64,000 nucleotides of DNA from Neptunicoccus sediminis (lineage in GTDB: Bacteria; Pseudomonadota; Alphaproteobacteria; Rhodobacterales; Rhodobacteraceae), in the NCBI RefSeq assembly GCF_001719615.1, contig NZ_MDVX01000008.1, positions 62,001 through 126,000 on the forward strand, read 5' to 3'. Made by a program: the position numbers and the translations under genes. Positions 22,430 to 30,524 of this stretch are shown piece after piece (the stretch's first letter is position 1; each line of letters opens with the position of its first letter). The notes beneath the pieces were generated by a model. It had not been told where the DNA came from, did not search any database, and saw only the letters and a program-made list of their open reading frames with translations.

Positions 22430-23320
22430 CTATCTTTTTTGATCCATGATCCGTTGCAACAACTCTGTTGCCTCCTGCCCTTTCAGGCTTTGCTGCCAGA
22501 TCCGCTCTGCCACCGACTGATGCAGTTTCACCGCTTCCTCGGCTGCGGTGATCGTCGCCACCCCGATGCGCACATTGGCCGAAGCGCCCAGCCGGAACGG
22601 GCTCGTCGCTACTTGTGCGCTGGTGCCTTTGCGCAGGATCTGGAAGATCGTGCTGGGCATGGAATCCTGAACAATACCGATCTGCATTCCGATGGGCTGT
22701 TCTTCGATCAGGGACTGGATATTTGCGATTTCCGCACGGGCCAGCCCATAGCGTTCGGCGGGCACCGGCGCCGCGCCGTGAAGATTCCCGACAAAGCCCG
22801 ACGCAAGGAACTGCTCCAGTTCCGAGGCTGACAGCAACGCGATCAGGTTCGGTTTGCGTTCGCGGAACTGTTTTTTGCGCTGCAGCAAAGTCTCGGTCAG
22901 TTGCGCGATAGAGGATTCCAGTCCGTCGCGGTTTGCAGCATTCTCCGGCACGCTTTCGCGCAGGACCTGTGGCAGCATGTCGTCATAGGCATCCGTGGTC
23001 AGCAAATAGGGTACCGGCCCGAACAGCACGGTAATCTGGTCCGCCTCGGATTCAATCTGGCGCAACCGTTCAAAGAACGTCACGGCAGAGGGGATATTCT
23101 CGGACCCGACCCCGAAAAGAGAGGCAAGCGAAACATCCAGCAGATCGGCAATCTTGCCCAGCGCATCGACGCGGATCGGCTGGCCGGATTCATACCTGTA
23201 AATCGCCGCACGAGAGATACCAGTGGCGCTCGCAACCTCCTCTGGCGTAAGTCCGGCACCCAGTCTATAGGACTTCAACCGTCTGCCAATGTCAGAAATC
23301 ATTTGGTATTGAGATGTCAT
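22430..23320 (-). CDS. XRE-family transcriptional regulator with large C-terminal domain
   Basis: A 296-residue regulator. A Cro/CI-type helix-turn-helix at residues ~10-65 includes LTPEEVASATGISRAAIYRYE. The remaining ~230 residues form an uncharacterised sensor-like region with no recognised catalytic motif. It is divergent from the DctPQM-pyr operon, and the shared gap carries an 18-bp perfect palindrome that suits a dimeric XRE protein. Control of the transporter and pyrimidine genes, perhaps in response to an imported pyrimidine, is the best inference. Confidence 0.87.
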   Translation of the reverse strand: MTSQYQMISDIGRRLKSYRLGAGLTPEEVASATGISRAAIYRYESGQPIRVDALGKIADLLDVSLASLFGVGSENIPSAVTFFERLRQIESEADQITVLFGPVPYLLTTDAYDDMLPQVLRESVPENAANRDGLESSIAQLTETLLQRKKQFRERKPNLIALLSASELEQFLASGFVGNLHGAAPVPAERYGLARAEIANIQSLIEEQPIGMQIGIVQDSMPSTIFQILRKGTSAQVATSPFRLGASANVRIGVATITAAEEAVKLHQSVAERIWQQSLKGQEATELLQRIMDQKR

Positions 23321-23394: not shown

Positions 23395-23412
23395 ATTCTC
23401 AAATTTGAGAAT
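23395..23412. promoter_or_regulatory. 18-bp perfect palindrome, likely XRE operator
   Basis: ATTCTCAAATTTGAGAAT lies midway between the XRE start (23320) and the dctP start (23472). Flanking GACAA and TTGTC add outer symmetry. TTGACT at 23417-23422 could serve as a -35 element for dctP, which would place the operator directly upstream of, or overlapping, the promoter. Confidence 0.6.
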
Positions 23413-23471
23413 TGTCTTGACTTTGATACATTGCTGCGGTCCTTTAGCAACGATTAACAGTGGAGAACACA

Positions 23472-24485
23472 ATGACGTTGAAACCGAATTTCACCCGCCG
23501 CGCTTTGGGGGCGCTTGCACTGGGGGCGCTGGCGCTCTCTGCCGCGCCTGTCGCTGCGCAAGATTTCACCGCACGGATCGGCCATCTGGAATCAACCCAG
23601 CAAAGCCGCCATGTGCATCTGGAAAAAGTTGCTGAACTGGTTAAGGAACGCACCAACGGTGCCGTTGAATTCCAGATTTTCCCGCAGGCCCAACTGGGCA
23701 ACCAGCGCCAGATGACCGAAGGCGTGCAGCTTGGCACGCTGGAAGCAACCGTGGCGCCCGCTGCGTTTCTTGGCGGGTTTAACCCTGCCGTTTCCGTTCT
23801 GGACATCCCCTATCTGATGCCCGCTGATCCGGCCGCAGCCCAAGCCCTGCGCGAAGGCCCGTTCGGGGATGCGCTGCTTGCGTCTTTTGACAAACGGGGT
23901 GTTGTGGGTGTGGCCTGGTGGCCCAACGGCATGAAGAACTTTACCTCCAACGCGCCTCTGGATGACATCGCGGCCTTTGCCGACCAGAAATTCCGCGTCA
24001 TGGACTCCAACATCCTGATCGAACAGTTCAACGCCCTTGGCGCCTCTGCCATCGCGCTACCCTTTGGAGAGCTGTACACATCCTTGCAAACCGGCGTTGT
24101 GGACGGGCAGGAAAACCCGCTCGACACCATCCAGCGCATGAAATTCTTTGAGGTTCAGGACTACCTTGTCGTGTCCGAACACGGCGCGATGGAAGACATG
24201 GTACTGTTCAACCCGATGTGGTGGAACAGCCTGCCGGATGAATACAAAACCGTCATCAAGGACACGTTCAACGAAGTCGTCCCTGCCCTGACCGAACACA
24301 AAGCCGCCGCTGTTGCCGACGCGCTGAAAGTGATCGGTGAAAGCGACATCAACATCCGCGAAGCCTCGGCTGAAGAGCGCACAGCCTTTGCCGAAAAAAT
24401 GACACCGCCGGCCACTGCCGCCTATATCAAGCGCGCAGGCGATGAGGGCGAAGCCCTGATCGAAATCTACAACGCCAACAAGTAA
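23472..24485 (+). CDS. TRAP transporter binding protein, DctP family
   Basis: A 337-residue periplasmic binding protein. The signal peptide MTLKPNFTRRALGALALGA has an arginine pair before the hydrophobic core and a cleavage site near VAAQD. The mature part shows the DctP pattern FPQAQLGNQRQMTEGVQLGT, and the arginine of KFRVMDS is the family's carboxylate-contacting arginine region. I chose the ATG at 23472, with GGAG six bases upstream; a GTG at 23460 is in frame but less well placed. It is the first gene of an eight-gene operon ending in pyrE and a small unknown, so the ligand is probably an acidic pyrimidine or ureido acid. Confidence 0.9.
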   Translation: MTLKPNFTRRALGALALGALALSAAPVAAQDFTARIGHLESTQQSRHVHLEKVAELVKERTNGAVEFQIFPQAQLGNQRQMTEGVQLGTLEATVAPAAFLGGFNPAVSVLDIPYLMPADPAAAQALREGPFGDALLASFDKRGVVGVAWWPNGMKNFTSNAPLDDIAAFADQKFRVMDSNILIEQFNALGASAIALPFGELYTSLQTGVVDGQENPLDTIQRMKFFEVQDYLVVSEHGAMEDMVLFNPMWWNSLPDEYKTVIKDTFNEVVPALTEHKAAAVADALKVIGESDINIREASAEERTAFAEKMTPPATAAYIKRAGDEGEALIEIYNANK

Positions 24486-24506
24486 GCGTTGATACAACAC
24501 TGCTGG

Positions 24507-24525
24507 GGCCCGTTTTTGGCGGGCC
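24507..24525 (+). other. Stem-loop between dctP and dctQ
   Basis: GGCCCG and CGGGCC form a 6-bp stem around the loop TTTTTGG in the 96-base gap after the binding-protein gene. It is a probable mRNA-stabilising or attenuating stem, like those after the other two binding-protein genes in the window. Confidence 0.5.
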
Positions 24526-24581
24526 TCACCACGGCGCAACGCCCCTGATCCGCCTTGCCGGTTGCAGCCAGAGGACCGAAT

Positions 24582-25094
24582 TTGAAAATCCTAAACCTAC
24601 TCAGACTTGTCGAAAGAACGTTCCTTGTCAGTGTCTTTCTCGCCATGGTCATTCTGTTTTTCGGCAATGTCATCGCGCGGGAGATCGGCGGCACCTTTGC
24701 CAGCCGCTTTGCATGGATCGAAGAGGCCGTGCGTTTCATGAATGTCTTTCTGGTCTTTATCGCCCTTGGCCTGACCCTTGAAAAAGGCCGCCACGTGGGA
24801 ATCGATATCCTGCGCAACAAACTGTCCGGCAAGCCCCGCTATCTTCTGTTGAAACTGATCGACGGAGTCGGGTTCTTCTTTGCCATTTACCTTGCATGGC
24901 TTGGCATGAGCCTTGTGGAATTTGTCCTGATGACCGGCCAGCGCAGCCCGACGCTGAACATCCCCATCGGCTGGATCTATATGGCGCCGGTGACGGGGTT
25001 CGGCCTGTTGGCCTTGCGCTTTGCCCTGTCCTTTTTCGGCGTCATCGACCGCTTTTCCGAAAACCAGCATGTAATCGAAGGAGATGACGCATGA
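24582..25094 (+). CDS. TRAP transporter small permease, DctQ family
   Basis: A four-helix membrane protein of 170 residues. Motifs typical of DctQ include FGNVIAREIGG, FAWIEEAVRFMNVFLVFIALG and KGRHVGIDIL. The start is taken as TTG at 24582, with GAGG seven bases upstream; no suitable ATG exists before the first helix. A TTG at 24555 would extend it without a ribosome site. The stop overlaps the start of the large permease, as is standard in TRAP operons. Confidence 0.87.
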   Translation: MKILNLLRLVERTFLVSVFLAMVILFFGNVIAREIGGTFASRFAWIEEAVRFMNVFLVFIALGLTLEKGRHVGIDILRNKLSGKPRYLLLKLIDGVGFFFAIYLAWLGMSLVEFVLMTGQRSPTLNIPIGWIYMAPVTGFGLLALRFALSFFGVIDRFSENQHVIEGDDA

Positions 25095-26371
25095 TCCTGA
25101 TTGTTGTCGCGCTCGCCGTTGTTCTTCTGGTGCTTGGCTTTGAGATGTTTCTGGTGCTGGGCGTTCCTGCCCTTGCCACCAAGGAACTGTTCTATGGCAA
25201 CCTGCCTGATCCCGCAGTTGTGCAGAAAATATTCGGCGGCGTGGACCATTCTACCCTGCTGGCGATCCCCTTCTTTATCTTTGCCGCACATCTGATGGGA
25301 TCGGGCCAGATTGCCCGCAACCTGACCGGATTTGTGCGCGCCATGATCGGCCATACCCGTGGCGGCATGGGGCACACGGTGATCGGCGGGTCTATGGCTT
25401 TCGGATCGGTCTCCGGCTCTGCCCCTGCGACGGTGGCGGCTATGGGCAAGATGGTCTACCCCGAAATGCGCAAGAACGGGTTTTCCGAAAAATTCAGCCT
25501 TGGCCTTTTAGTGGCCAGTGCGGAAACCGCCCTGCTGATCCCGCCCTCCATCACCTTTATCATTTACGGCTGGATGACCGGCACCTCTATTGCGCGGCTG
25601 TTCGCGGGTGGTCTGGCTGTGGGTATTTTTCTGGGACTGGCCTTTGCTGTCATGGTCTGGATCGAGGCCAAACGCAAAGGGATTGAGGCCGATGCAAAAT
25701 CCTCTTGGGGGCAACGGTATCAGGCGCTGAAGGATTCAGCCTGGGCACTGGGGATGCCGGTGATAATCCTTGGCGGCATCTATTCCGGCACGATCACCCC
25801 GACCGAGGCCGCTGCCGTCAGCGTGGTCTACGCGATCTTTGTGGAAATGGTCATCTACCGGAATTTCGGCTTCAAAGACCTGTTCCGCATTACCGAACAA
25901 AGCGCGATTTCCACCTGCGTGATCTTTATCCTTCTGGCGATGGGCGGGCTGATCTCCTTTTACGTAACACTGGCGCAGGTGCCGACCCAGATCACCGATT
26001 TCCTGACCGCGATTGATGCAGGACCGATCCAATTCCTGCTGGCCGTTAATATCTGTTTCCTGATTGCGGGGATGTTCATCGACCCGAACTCTGCCCTGTT
26101 GATCCTTGTGCCACCGCTGTTTCCGGTGGCCACGGCGCTTGGGGTTGATCCGGTGCATTTCGGAATGATCGTCACGCTGAACATCAGTCTGGGCATGATC
26201 ACCCCGCCCTTTGGTCTGGATATATTTGTGGCCTCCTCCACCCTGCAAAAACCGGTACTCAACATCATCAAAGGGGTCTGGCCGTTCGTCTTTGTCAACA
26301 TCCTCGTGCTGCTGGTGATCACCTACGTACCGCAAATCTCACTTTTCATCCCGAAGCTGCTCTTCGGCTAA
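25091..26371 (+). CDS. TRAP transporter large permease, DctM family
   Basis: A 426-residue permease with about 12 hydrophobic segments. Conserved blocks are SGSAPATVAAMGKMVYPEM (residues ~100-120), LLIPPSITFIIYG and IDPNSALLILVPPLFPVATALGVDPVHFG near 335-360, then ITPPFGLDIFVAS. It forms the ion-coupled transport unit with DctQ and is fed by DctP. The ATG overlaps the dctQ stop. PyrK starts 12 bases downstream. Confidence 0.92.
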   Translation: MILIVVALAVVLLVLGFEMFLVLGVPALATKELFYGNLPDPAVVQKIFGGVDHSTLLAIPFFIFAAHLMGSGQIARNLTGFVRAMIGHTRGGMGHTVIGGSMAFGSVSGSAPATVAAMGKMVYPEMRKNGFSEKFSLGLLVASAETALLIPPSITFIIYGWMTGTSIARLFAGGLAVGIFLGLAFAVMVWIEAKRKGIEADAKSSWGQRYQALKDSAWALGMPVIILGGIYSGTITPTEAAAVSVVYAIFVEMVIYRNFGFKDLFRITEQSAISTCVIFILLAMGGLISFYVTLAQVPTQITDFLTAIDAGPIQFLLAVNICFLIAGMFIDPNSALLILVPPLFPVATALGVDPVHFGMIVTLNISLGMITPPFGLDIFVASSTLQKPVLNIIKGVWPFVFVNILVLLVITYVPQISLFIPKLLFG

Positions 26372-26383
26372 GAAAGGCAAAAC

Positions 26384-27229
26384 ATGTCACTGATACAAAG
26401 GCATACCGCCGGAGAGGTTTCTCCGGCGAACGGGACAACTCACGAAGTTGAAACCACTGTAAAGTCGAACACACCCGTGAATGGTGAGTACCGTTTGCTG
26501 ACGCTTGACGCGCCGCAGTCCGTGCTGGATTGCCAGCCGGGGCAGTTCTTTCACATCCTCTGCCCTGTCACCACAACCGAGCAACCCTACCTGCGCCGCC
26601 CGATGAGCATTTACGGCTATTCCGCTGAAAAGGGCGAATTGCAGTTCCTTTATAAAGTCACCGGCGAAGGCACGCGGGCGCTGGCAACACTGGCAAAGGG
26701 CGACAGGCTGAACGTGCTTGGCCCGCTGGGTGTTGGGTTTACCATTCAGGACGACTGGCAGAACCTTTTGCTGCTGGCGCGGGGTGTCGGTCTGGCCACG
26801 CTTGCGCCGCTGGCACAAGAGGCGCAACGCCTGAACCGCAAGCTGGTGGCGATCTGTTCGGCCCGTAACGCCGATGTTCTGATGTCTATCGACCATTTCA
26901 AAAGCCTCGGCGCCGAGGTGATTACTGTCACCGATGCGGACGGCACCTCTGATCTGGAAAACCTGCGCGCGATCATCGAAGGCCGCATTGCGGATCAGGG
27001 CGTGGATGCCATGTACACTTGCGGATCAAACCGGATGCTGAAGTTGCTGCAAGAGATCGGTGCGACCCACAACATCCCCGGTGAAATCGCATTAGAACAG
27101 CAAATGGCCTGCGGGCTTGGCATGTGCCAATGCTGCGTGCGTTCGTTTAACCGCGAGGGCACCATAACACAGGAACGGGTCTGTCGCGAAGGCCCCGTCT
27201 TTGGCATAGAGGAGGCGATGGCATGGTAA
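26384..27229 (+). CDS. pyrK: Dihydroorotate dehydrogenase electron-transfer subunit (PyrK-like)
   Basis: A 281-residue ferredoxin-reductase-like flavoprotein. The FAD-binding RRPMSIYGY block lies near residue 72, the NAD-domain segment LLARGVGLATLAPLA follows, and the C-terminal cysteine cluster CGLGMCQCC...C is the [2Fe-2S] site of class 1B PyrK. In class 1B enzymes it passes electrons between NAD(H) and PyrD. It overlaps the pyrD start by seven bases. In this lineage pyrimidine synthesis normally uses a quinone-linked class 2 PyrD (family knowledge), so this pair looks like an accessory system. Confidence 0.85.
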   Translation: MSLIQRHTAGEVSPANGTTHEVETTVKSNTPVNGEYRLLTLDAPQSVLDCQPGQFFHILCPVTTTEQPYLRRPMSIYGYSAEKGELQFLYKVTGEGTRALATLAKGDRLNVLGPLGVGFTIQDDWQNLLLLARGVGLATLAPLAQEAQRLNRKLVAICSARNADVLMSIDHFKSLGAEVITVTDADGTSDLENLRAIIEGRIADQGVDAMYTCGSNRMLKLLQEIGATHNIPGEIALEQQMACGLGMCQCCVRSFNREGTITQERVCREGPVFGIEEAMAW

Positions 27230-28167
27230 ACCTTAGCACCAAAATCGGCAGCCTGACGCTGGCCAATCCGATCATGCCTGCCTCTGGCACGTTTTCCGAA
27301 GACCTGTCCGAAGTGCTGGACCTGCACCAGTTGGGCGCCCATGTGACCAAGACGATCACCGCGGAAAAGCGGGGCGGCAATCCCACGCCCCGTGTTTGCG
27401 AAGTGCGCGGCTCCATGCTGAATTCCATCGGCATTCCATCCAAAGGCGTGCAGCATTTCATCGACAATACGATCCCGTTTTACAACGCCTATGACGTGCC
27501 ACTGGTCGTCAGTATTTCGGCCAATTCTGCCGATGAATTTGCCCGCATCTGCGAGCAGGTTTCTGTACCCGGTGTCGCCGCGATTGAAGTAAATATCTCC
27601 TGCCCCAACATCGAAGAGGACGGCAAGGCCTTTGCCATGCGCCCCTCGACCACCACTGCCGTGATGGAAAAGCTGCGCAGCGCCTCTGACCTGCCGCTTT
27701 GGGCCAAGCTTAGCCCCAACACAGGCGAAACCATAGAGGTCGCCCTTGCCGCAGAAGAGGCAGGCGCCGACGCGCTGGTGGTGGCCAATACACTGCTGTC
27801 TATGGCGATTGACATTCATACCCGCAAACCGAAACTCGGCAATCTGATGGGCGGTCTGTCCGGCCCGTCCCTGAAACCGATTGCCCTGCGCATGGCCTAT
27901 CAATGTGCCAAATCGGTCCAGATTCCAGTGATCGGCTGCGGTGGCATTTCCACGGTCGAAGACATCGTGGAATACCTGATTGCAGGGGCCACGGCGGTTC
28001 AGGTCGGAACCGCAACCTTTATCAATCCCAACATTATGGTGACTCTGCTCGGGCAGTTGGAAACCTATCTGGAAACCCGGAATATCGCCAACCTCAGCGA
28101 TCTGGTCGGCTCGGTTCGCGATGAAGATGCCGCCGATGCTGTCGTCTTCATGGAGACCGCCCCATGA
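27223..28167 (+). CDS. pyrD: Dihydroorotate dehydrogenase, class 1B catalytic subunit
   Basis: A 314-residue FMN TIM-barrel enzyme. The class 1 catalytic cysteine is C127 in VNISCPNIEE; class 2 enzymes use serine here. Other family blocks are NPIMPASGTFSEDL, KLSPNTGET and GLSGPSLKPIALRM. It starts inside the end of pyrK, so the two are expected at 1:1. It interconverts dihydroorotate and orotate with NAD through PyrK. Coupling to a transporter and an amidohydrolase raises the possibility that it runs in the reductive, catabolic direction, as in orotate-fermenting clostridia; this is inference. Confidence 0.88.
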   Translation: MVNLSTKIGSLTLANPIMPASGTFSEDLSEVLDLHQLGAHVTKTITAEKRGGNPTPRVCEVRGSMLNSIGIPSKGVQHFIDNTIPFYNAYDVPLVVSISANSADEFARICEQVSVPGVAAIEVNISCPNIEEDGKAFAMRPSTTTAVMEKLRSASDLPLWAKLSPNTGETIEVALAAEEAGADALVVANTLLSMAIDIHTRKPKLGNLMGGLSGPSLKPIALRMAYQCAKSVQIPVIGCGGISTVEDIVEYLIAGATAVQVGTATFINPNIMVTLLGQLETYLETRNIANLSDLVGSVRDEDAADAVVFMETAP

Positions 28168-29444
28168 CCACCGCTCCGTTCACTGTTGACCCGCAGGAGT
28201 TGCGTCTTGCCACGCAATGGTTCAACGACATCTACAACATGAGCCGCGACCGCCTTGGCGTATCCCGTCCGGCCTATTCCGCCAAAGAGACCGAGGTTCT
28301 GGAATTTCTGGCGGATCTCTGCCGCGCAGAAGGGCTGTTTGTGGAAACCGATGCGGGGCAGAACCTGCTGATTTCCCTACCGGAAGACGCAGATGCGGAA
28401 CGGTTTGTGATTGTCGGCTCCCATGTGGACTCTGTGCCGATGGGCGGCAATTACGACGGGATGGCGGGCGTTCTGGCTGGTCTGATGTGCCTGTTCCGCG
28501 CCCGCAAAACCGGCACCCGTTTTGCCCGCCCTGTAAAGGTTCTGGCCATGCGGGGTGAGGAAAGCGCGTGGTTCGGCCCCTGCTACATCGCCTCCAAAGC
28601 GCTGATGGGCACCTTGAACGGCGACGAACTGGCCTCCGCCCACAAAGGCGACGGGCGCAGCCTGTCGGACCATATGGCGGATGTCGGAATTGACATGACG
28701 CGGGTTGCAGCGGGACAACCGCTCATGGATAAATCCGACATTCTCGAATACATCGAACTGCACATTGAACAGGGCCCGCTGCTGATCGGCAAGGACCAAC
28801 CTGCGGCGGTTGTATCGGGCATTCGCGGTAATTTCCGGCACAAACAGGTGCGCTGTATCGGGGAGGCAGGCCATTCCGGCGCCGTGCCTCGCGCCTTTCG
28901 CAAAGACCCTGTGCTGGCGATGGCCGACCTGCTGCACCGACTGGATGAAAGCTGGCTGACCATCGTGCAAAAGGGCGACGATCTGGTGCTGACCTCTGGC
29001 GTGGTCGGGACCGATCCCGAACGTCACGCCATGTCGCGCATTGCCGATGAAATCCGCTTCTCGCTCGACATTCGCAGCCAGAACAGCGAAGTGCTTGAAG
29101 CGATGGCAATGCTGCTGCGCGAGGAAATGGACAAGATCGCGGCTGAGCGGGGCGTGACTTTTGACCTTGGGGATGTGAACAACACGCCCCCTGCCCTGAT
29201 GACGCCGGAACTGGTGGCGCAACTGGAACAGGCCATGGGCCGCCTTGGCATGGAACCCACCACGATGGCGTCGGGCGGTGGTCATGATGCGGCGGTGTTT
29301 TCCAACGCCGGTGTTCCGGCCGCGATGGTTTTTGTGCGCAACCAGAACGGTTCTCATAATCCGGACGAAGCGATGGAAATCGAGGATTTTCTCGCTGGTG
29401 TCTCGATCATTTATGAGTATCTGGTTAGAACTGCGCCATGTTGA
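28164..29444 (+). CDS. M20-family Zn amidohydrolase (N-carbamoyl-amino-acid hydrolase / allantoate amidohydrolase type)
   Basis: A 426-residue enzyme of the hydantoinase/carbamoylase group. Metal residues are visible as H88 ([11 protein letters not shown]), D98 (NYDG), E132-E133 (MRGEES) and H200 ([10 protein letters not shown]), with a further His in GGGHDAAVF. Members hydrolyse N-carbamoyl-amino acids or ureido compounds to ammonia, CO2 and the amine. Beside pyrK-pyrD the attractive substrate is N-carbamoyl-aspartate (ureidosuccinate). It overlaps the pyrD stop by four bases. A role on allantoate or beta-ureidopropionate is the alternative. Confidence 0.86.
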
Positions 29445-29487
29445 AACCGTCTTTCGTCACAGCGCAGACATTTGCAAAGGATCACAG

Positions 29488-30180
29488 ATGAGCAGCCATT
29501 TCCCACCCCGCGAGGTGATGAGCGAAACAACCGCGAATATGCTGCTGGAAATCGACGCAGTGCATTTCAACGCGGAGAAACCCTTTACTTTCACTTCGGG
29601 CATTGCCAGCCCGGTTTATATCGACTGCCGCAAGATCATCGCCTACCCGCGCCTGCGCGATATGGTGACGGCGTTTTCCGTGTCCCTGATCCTGCGGGAT
29701 GTGGGGTTTGAACAGTTCGACGCGGTTGCAGGCGGTGAAACTGCTGGCATACCCTTTGCCGCATGGATCGCCAAGGACATGGGTCTGCCGATGCATTACG
29801 TGCGCAAAAAGCCCAAAGGCTTTGGGCGTGACGCACAGATCGAAGGCGATATTCAGGAAGAACAACGGGTGCTTCTGGTGGAAGACCTGACAACTGATGG
29901 CGGCAGCAAGATCAACTTTTGCAACGCCCTGCGCCGTGCCGGAGCCAAAGCCGATCACGCCATTGTGGTCTTTTATTATGACATCTTCCAGCAAACCCGC
30001 GACAGGCTGGAGGCGGACGGCATCACCCTTCATTCCCTTGCCACATGGTGGGATGTTCTGGCTGCTAGCAAAGCACAAAATCGCTTTGACACAAAAACAC
30101 TAACCGAAGTCGAGGGCTTTTTGAACGCGCCTCTCGACTGGTCCGCCCGACACGGCGGCATATCCCATCTGACCCTTTAA
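29488..30180 (+). CDS. pyrE: Orotate phosphoribosyltransferase
   Basis: A 230-residue type I phosphoribosyltransferase that makes OMP from orotate and PRPP. The PRPP motif is [14 protein letters not shown], and the orotate-specific [17 protein letters not shown] lies near residue 30. I chose the ATG at 29488 (AAGG upstream); an ATG at 29518 has a ribosome site only three bases away. It lies 43 bases after the amidohydrolase gene in the same direction. It can either be the cell's housekeeping pyrE captured in this operon or a dedicated salvage copy. Confidence 0.92.
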
Positions 30181-30191
30181 GGAGCACGCTT

Positions 30192-30524
30192 ATGATGTTC
30201 GATCAAATTCTTGAAACCCTGCGCAGCAACGGCAAAAGCGGGGCGGCCTATACCAAAACCATCGCGCTAGCAGATAAGGCCATGCGGGAGGATGCCGACC
30301 GCGCAGCGGCCTACGGGTTGCTGTGCGAACTGGGGGAACGGTTTCTGGATACCACGGGCCGTCTGCCTGTTACTTCGGTGCAGATCGACAAAGCCTTTGA
30401 GGAATTTTCCAAAGCCGCTAACGATCTGAAAGCGGCTTATGAGACAGGCGATGCGGCGGAAACCCTTGCAACGCTGAACGCGATTGCCACGCTCAGCCGC
30501 ACACCGCTGAACCTGTCAAAGTAA
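30192..30524 (+). CDS. Small protein of unknown function after pyrE
   Basis: A 110-residue, mostly helical, soluble protein rich in Ala and Lys, without signal peptide, membrane segment or known catalytic motif. The ATG follows AAGGAG by seven bases, a strong site, and it begins 11 bases after pyrE, so it belongs to the operon. The repeated pattern of A-x2-K/E heptads suggests a helical bundle. I do not recognise the family. Confidence 0.75.
   Translation: MMFDQILETLRSNGKSGAAYTKTIALADKAMREDADRAAAYGLLCELGERFLDTTGRLPVTSVQIDKAFEEFSKAANDLKAAYETGDAAETLATLNAIATLSRTPLNLSK

Follow-up and report, generated by a model that had tools for sequence, protein, structure and literature searches.

A stretch of 64,000 nucleotides from the genome of Neptunicoccus sediminis (contig NZ_MDVX01000008.1, positions 62,001 to 126,000; the window, in whose numbering coordinates are given unless a related locus is named) carries the genes of a tripartite ATP-independent periplasmic (TRAP) transporter in one run with pyrK, pyrD, a gene for an M20 amidohydrolase, pyrE and a small gene, orf8, divergent from a gene for an XRE-type regulator. 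What would such a set of genes be for? The answer that we consider probable is that they form an inducible accessory operon for the uptake of orotate, its reductive breakdown as a source of nitrogen and carbon and, optionally, its salvage into nucleotides. According to this scheme, DctPQM would import orotate, and PyrDK, working in the reducing direction, would use NADH to convert orotate to L-dihydroorotate. Ring opening to N-carbamoyl-L-aspartate would be carried out by a dihydroorotase, namely an operon-encoded PyrC in many relatives and here one of two others in the genome. The M20 enzyme would then hydrolyse N-carbamoyl-L-aspartate irreversibly to L-aspartate, CO2 and ammonia, thereby pulling the chain. 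Meanwhile, PyrE would divert part of the orotate to orotidine monophosphate and on to uridine monophosphate (UMP), the XRE regulator would repress at the sequence TCTCA-N4-TGAGA, the repression ending when it detects orotate or a product, and the orf8 protein, which is small and helical, would act as a partner, in the simplest case to the M20 enzyme. Pathway knowledge and gene context suggest the direction of the PyrDK flux, the M20 substrate, the repression by XRE and its effector, and the role of orf8.

The gene order, the divergent regulator and the stop/start overlaps given in an initial annotation, which was made from the letters of the window, are borne out by the reading frames and by family matches. 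DctPQM is a TRAP transporter: its binding protein and its two permeases, small and large, each match one of the three Pfam families and are encoded side by side. Its genes are dctP (23472-24485; the ATG at 23472 was chosen as start, a GTG at 23460 being open too), dctQ (24555-25094, Pfam DctQ; by eye the in-frame TTG at 24582 is the likelier start) and dctM (25091-26371, above the TIGR00786 cut-off). They are followed by pyrK (26384-27229, Pfam DHODB_Fe-S_bind above cut-off) and pyrD (27223-28167, NF005574 and TIGR01037 above cut-off), for the FAD/iron-sulfur electron transfer subunit and the catalytic subunit of a class 1B dihydroorotate dehydrogenase, the gene of the predicted N-carbamoyl-L-aspartate amidohydrolase of the M20 hydantoinase/carbamoylase family (28164-29444, TIGR01879 above cut-off), pyrE for orotate phosphoribosyltransferase, the genome's second copy (29488-30180, starting with the ATG at 29488; NF001729 above cut-off), and orf8 (30192-30524), which encodes an unnamed protein of 110 residues with five predicted helices. 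All of these lie on the plus strand, and read directly, the frames overlap by 4 bases at dctQ/dctM, 7 at pyrK/pyrD and 4 at pyrD/M20. The regulator gene (296 residues) occupies 22430-23320 on the minus strand, and a perfect palindrome upstream of dctP, ATTCTCAAATTTGAGAAT (23395-23412), is a candidate operator.

The genome search for the order dctPQM-pyrK-pyrD-M20-pyrE that the initial annotation had proposed was run, and the order recurs among 54 related loci (each denoted below by an L-number) found when named genomes were scanned once with PyrK as the query, so that the presence of pyrK in them is by construction. In the gene-order table, from which TRAP matches below 33% identity were left out, pyrD is adjacent in 54/54 loci, M20 is present in 53, dctPQM in 51, an XRE gene of this family in 47, pyrE in 42 and a full or partial PyrC in 27. 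M20 occurs in all 49 alphaproteobacterial loci of the set, whereas pyrC and pyrE vary: where more than 2.5 kb is available downstream of M20 (44 of the 49), a PyrC match was found in 25, pyrE in 36 and orf8 in 42. The importer varies as well, and the TRAP-less loci L025 and L049 have an NMT1/THI5-type ATP-binding cassette (ABC) transporter and a related XRE gene nearby. Reductive breakdown with optional salvage fits this pattern, because the pyrK-pyrD-M20 core is constant in the clade while the importer, PyrC and PyrE are variable. Alternatively, salvage may come first, with imported orotate feeding PyrE and UMP synthesis while PyrDK and M20 merely dispose of the excess. Consistent with this, pyrE is present in 36 of the 44 loci with room for it, and a second PyrE accompanies the operon in 11/11 genomes; however, pyrE was not found in the other eight (L025, L029, L030, L032, L041, L048, L049 and L055), M20 is present in 49/49, and an irreversible carbamoylase is ill-suited to pure salvage. 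We therefore regard a salvage-first system as rather unlikely.

The enzymes of the proposed breakdown route were examined by residue conservation and by comparison with solved structures. The closest solved chains for both PyrD and PyrK are of class 1B; the iron-sulfur cysteines 243, 248, 251 and 267 of PyrK are invariant in 53/53 aligned sequences, as are the catalytic cysteine C127 and K43, N67, N124 and N189 of PyrD in 55/55. PyrK falls below the curated NCBIfam cut-offs (best 135.6 of 314 bits) and passes that of Pfam. By the active-site cysteine and the iron-sulfur cysteine motif, the two proteins are assigned to class 1B dihydroorotate dehydrogenase. Both subunits match the class 1B PyrDK of entries 1EP1-1EP3, which we take to be that of Lactococcus lactis, with the iron-sulfur and catalytic cysteines kept; the window's enzyme differs in being a paralogue alongside a class 2 enzyme. 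The operon PyrD set also has IPSKG (IP and KG in 55/55, S in 54/55) and GCGG motifs, where the closest solved PyrD has other letters. The M20 protein is placed by its sequence in the hydantoinase/carbamoylase family, and its solved relatives are named L-carbamoylase, allantoate and ureidoglycolate enzymes, and beta-alanine synthase. In the window and 51 loci (L016 and L050, with a broken or partial M20, and L047, with none, being excluded), H87, D98, E132, E133, H200 and H398, the metal-site residues, are invariant (52/52). The clade further has arginines at 130, 221 and 225 in 52/52 and at 292 in 46/52, and in 52/52 serine, alanine or threonine stands in place of the asparagine that the other M20 of the genome has in its NVIP motif. 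The arginines and the replacement suggest that the site accommodates a second carboxylate, which carbamoylaspartate has, and the gene is a candidate for carbamoylaspartate hydrolysis (ureidosuccinase). A carbamoyl-glutamate hydrolase model matches the protein far below cut-off (258.7 of 520 bits).

A dihydroorotase had been described as missing in the initial annotation. This is true of the window's operon, and likewise of its two nearest relatives (L004 and L005), in none of which a dihydroorotase gene was found; it is not true of the system in general, as many relatives carry a PyrC of about 350 residues downstream of M20, ahead of the position of pyrE (the L006 copy scores above the TIGR00856 cut-off). 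Among the 25 PyrC matches, 23 are intact and entered a tree, that of L053 is in two pieces, and that of L014 (7329-7613) is a remnant of 94 residues left between the M20 and pyrE genes, a vestige that indicates how pyrC is lost. Given that 23 of the 44 loci with room have an intact gene, one has a broken gene and one a remnant, the dihydroorotase step was lost from the window's operon. On the tree, the free-standing PyrC of the genome falls among the operon PyrCs with weak support.

For the ligand, the initial annotation had offered orotate, dihydroorotate or carbamoylaspartate. The best match of DctP in the PDB is 4NN3 of Maridesulfovibrio salexigens (E 4.9e-129; 201/321 identical, and 196/304 from residue 35 on), a TRAP binding protein that carries bound orotic acid (PMC11668362); in a binding-protein screen, orotic acid is among the TRAP ligands found (PMC5812351). 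Because the closest solved relative bound orotic acid, the evidence favours orotate as the likeliest of the three. The annotated role in uptake and breakdown or salvage is therefore well supported and its ligand narrowed, although the statement that such a transporter was not known to have been described does not hold for its binding component, since structural work had already placed orotic acid in a TRAP binding protein (PMC11668362, PMC5812351). A lysine at position 152 is found in 4NN3 alone among the structures compared (PMC11668362). By alignment it corresponds to K159 of the window protein and is kept in 51/51 locus DctPs, and the carboxylate-binding arginine, phenylalanine and asparagine positions of 4NN3 are kept in the window and in the same 51/51. 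Nine further operon DctPs, some from repeated genomes, have the same lysine and carboxylate-site positions. The two proteins differ in that 4NN3 is known as a structure with its ligand; the relevant passages of PMC11668362 and PMC5812351 connect it with no enzymes.

Several observations weigh against orotate breakdown as the role of this operon. Lysine 152 of 4NN3 points away from the ligand (PMC11668362). K159 and the three carboxylate-site positions are common to three sister TRAPs (L076, L113 and L114; 51-54% identity), and K159 was accordingly rejected as a sole marker of orotate; W154, which is tyrosine in L076 and L113 and tryptophan in L114, is a better marker, though imperfect. The asparagine at position 76 of 4NN3 is poorly kept, window position 81 being N in 35/51 (Q in 10, S in 2, T in 2, G in 1, D in 1); the column is uncertain, and its neighbour Q82 is Q in 47/51. 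DctPs of 71-75% identity occur without adjacent pyrDK in two genomes, and one of 67% does so on a plasmid. The M20 substrate is predicted from context, and carbamoylases of this family use many ureido acids. Furthermore, the window's operon and its nearest relatives lack the dihydroorotase gene, as described above, and the frequency of pyrE implies that salvage is wanted too. The wider class comprises PyrKs at 48-53% identity in 10 further genomes of 385; in 11 more distant alphaproteobacterial PyrK loci that were examined (48-53%, one ended by a short contig), M20 is found in just 3 and TRAP in 1, so the pyrK-pyrD-M20 core is constant only inside the closer clade.

Some of these points could be taken to mean that the system handles a related acid, such as dihydroorotate, N-carbamoyl-L-aspartate or a substituted orotate, and not orotate itself. 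The sister TRAPs that keep those residues adjoin other catabolic genes, recognisably different ones in the case of L076 and L113, and PyrC and PyrDK can run in the synthetic direction too. Against this, 4NN3, solved with orotic acid, is far closer to the operon DctPs than the sister TRAPs are, and PyrE, an orotate user, is encoded in most loci, which makes a related acid improbable and leaves orotate as the favoured ligand. As for the sister TRAPs themselves, that of L076 adjoins maleate isomerase and ring-hydroxylating dioxygenase genes, and in L113 (around 8364) and L114 (around 8177) genes that by eye resemble those for isochorismatase or xanthine dehydrogenase lie nearby; the ligand of the sister TRAPs is probably another heteroaromatic acid.

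The genome (3.86 Mb in 72 contigs) contains three matches to the dihydroorotate dehydrogenase family, namely the operon PyrD, a quinone-type (class 2) PyrD above cut-offs and a PreA-like partial match. The class 2 pyrD that the initial annotation had suggested looking for is thus present elsewhere, which excludes, for this genome, the possibility raised there that pyrDK encodes the sole, housekeeping dihydroorotate dehydrogenase. There are two full pyrE genes in the genome and two dihydroorotases outside the operon (one above the pyrC_multi cut-off, the other of the E. coli type). With a class 2 PyrD, another PyrE and two further dihydroorotases encoded elsewhere in the genome, the operon is accessory. 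Its distribution is patchy: the operon PyrK is present in 11 of the 390 genomes sampled from Rhodobacterales, including two of the seven listed genomes of the same genus, and in each of the 11 a class 2 PyrD scores above cut-off and PyrE is present in two copies. Just one PyrE is present in each of the five operon-free genus mates, all of which have a class 2 PyrD too (four above cut-off and one split across two contig ends). A related DctP is encoded on eight plasmid records, of which six were examined (H3 and H4 were left out); four of the six carry the full operon, and two carry the TRAP genes without pyrDK. Every enzyme name in the operon except one belongs to de novo pyrimidine synthesis, but in view of the second gene set, the 11/390 distribution, the full operon on 4/6 plasmid records and the carbamoylase, it is hardly credible that housekeeping pyrimidine genes were relocated beside an unrelated TRAP transporter, and we reject this for a genome that has its own class 2 PyrD and second PyrE. 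The PreA-like gene lies at a separate locus with a dihydropyrimidinase gene, another M20 gene and, by eye, ABC transporter genes, and represents a separate uracil-type pathway. Those enzymes, like the ones proposed here, reduce and open a ring and remove a carbamoyl group, but their M20 is only 31% identical to that of the operon.

In clostridial reductive orotate degradation, as in Clostridium (Zymobacterium) oroticum, orotate is converted through dihydroorotate and carbamoylaspartate to aspartate. The same series of steps is proposed here, with a class 1B, NAD-linked enzyme in common; the system in the window differs in its alphaproteobacterial hosts, many of them marine by name, and in the union of TRAP importer, XRE regulator, PyrE branch and orf8 in one operon. 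The C. oroticum dihydroorotate dehydrogenase is assigned to class 1B (PMC10395836). No description of the operon was found among the titles and abstract beginnings of the matches listed in a literature search whose coverage leaves out most subscription journals. In one study, a pyrE mutant of Ruegeria pomeroyi is among the mutants rescued by crossfeeding, and nothing on the operon was seen there (PMC10041152). Most of its parts are of known kinds; the small helical orf8 protein, a near-constant companion, is in no named family. A class of orotate-binding proteins known structurally is now linked to a complete route of uptake, breakdown and salvage, which would imply that these bacteria use orotate as a nutrient. 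With the operon come also a candidate carbamoylaspartate hydrolase gene, a defined regulator with a candidate site, and a small protein family open to testing.

The XRE gene of this family is present in 47 of the 49 alphaproteobacterial loci, mostly divergent from the operon and elsewhere codirectional or within it (L017). L018 and L020, both of Pseudovibrio exalbescens, are the only two without a match, and they also lack orf8 and the palindrome. The pattern TCTCA-N4-TGAGA was derived from the palindromes of the window and its relatives, which makes the following promoter count partly post hoc: among the promoters of the window and 51 loci (52 in all), 22 have an exact copy and 42 have one with at most one mismatch, where shuffles that keep base composition only give expectations of 0.05 and 0.3. 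None of 51 control stretches internal to dctM has the pattern within two mismatches. The six loci without the XRE gene have 2 to 4 mismatches; four loci with the gene have 2 or 3, among them L009, in which an exact copy lies outside the stretch scored. The genome has two copies of the longer form TTCTCA-N4-TGAGAA, that of this promoter and one (C55:404717) near a BLUF-type frame by eye, which was taken as chance. The AlphaFold2 model of the regulator (pLDDT 87.3) consists of an N-terminal helix-turn-helix (Pfam HTH_31/HTH_3) and a C-terminal part with weak Foldseek matches (TM-score below 0.4), including phospholipase-D-family entries; that this part is the sensor is a guess. In L028 and L031 (1-5915 in each), a second XRE gene of the family stands beside ABC transporter genes and directly adjoins the TRAP operon's own XRE.

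The orf8 protein was traced with a profile built from eleven members, at most 12 candidates being scored per genome in the scan of 390 genomes. It is found in 43 of the 49 alphaproteobacterial loci, downstream of pyrE, or of pyrC or M20 where pyrE was not found; four of the negative loci (L017, L028, L031 and L045) end at a contig end near M20, and the others are the two of P. exalbescens. In the genome scan it occurs in 11/390, exactly those with the operon PyrK. The window protein matches no Pfam family, and two families each match one of 48 members; in NCBIfam, searched with the window protein only (PHROGs and PADLOC lay outside the search), TIGR04358 reaches 19.7 bits against a cut-off of 40. 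The model has five helices (pLDDT 93.1), for which a Foldseek search of solved folds gave nothing significant (best E 0.98). The orf8 product is therefore a small protein without a named family that is tied to the operon. It is fused in the same reading frame to the C-terminus of M20 in L048 (Martelella limonii) and L049 (Neorhizobium), and because of these fusions in two species the M20 enzyme is its likely partner. Since a potential start codon is retained at the junction in both fusions, the fused orf8 may be translated separately as well. A partnership with XRE was given less weight in favour of the fusions: orf8 and XRE are jointly missing from L018, L020 and the Burkholderiales loci, and L082, L086 and L088 have XRE without an orf8 match. 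We tentatively suggest, as a combined proposal that is more doubtful than the pathway itself, that M20 has the long-known ureidosuccinase activity and needs orf8, a new family, as an obligate partner, and that the XRE regulator detects orotate or dihydroorotate by means of a phospholipase-D-like domain that has become a ligand sensor.

Other arrangements were seen around more distant or neighbouring genes. By eye, L080 (4406-8541) and L085 (4406-8577), and in a similar order L081 and L084, have an XRE gene of the family, a gene for a repeat-rich protein, and pyrK and pyrD next to a large gene resembling those of molybdoenzymes and one resembling a deacetylase gene, without M20, perhaps reflecting another use of PyrDK in the breakdown of N-heterocycles. 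In L088 (3633-12274), a pyrK-pyrD-M20-pyrE-XRE series lies beside NMT1-type ABC transporter-like and nucleoside hydrolase-like genes (by eye), a context which suggests that a nucleoside form is taken in. Finally, in the nearest relatives L004 (14138-19386) and L005 (14138-19378), about 5 kb separates orf8 from a short-chain dehydrogenase/reductase gene that is adjacent to it in the window.

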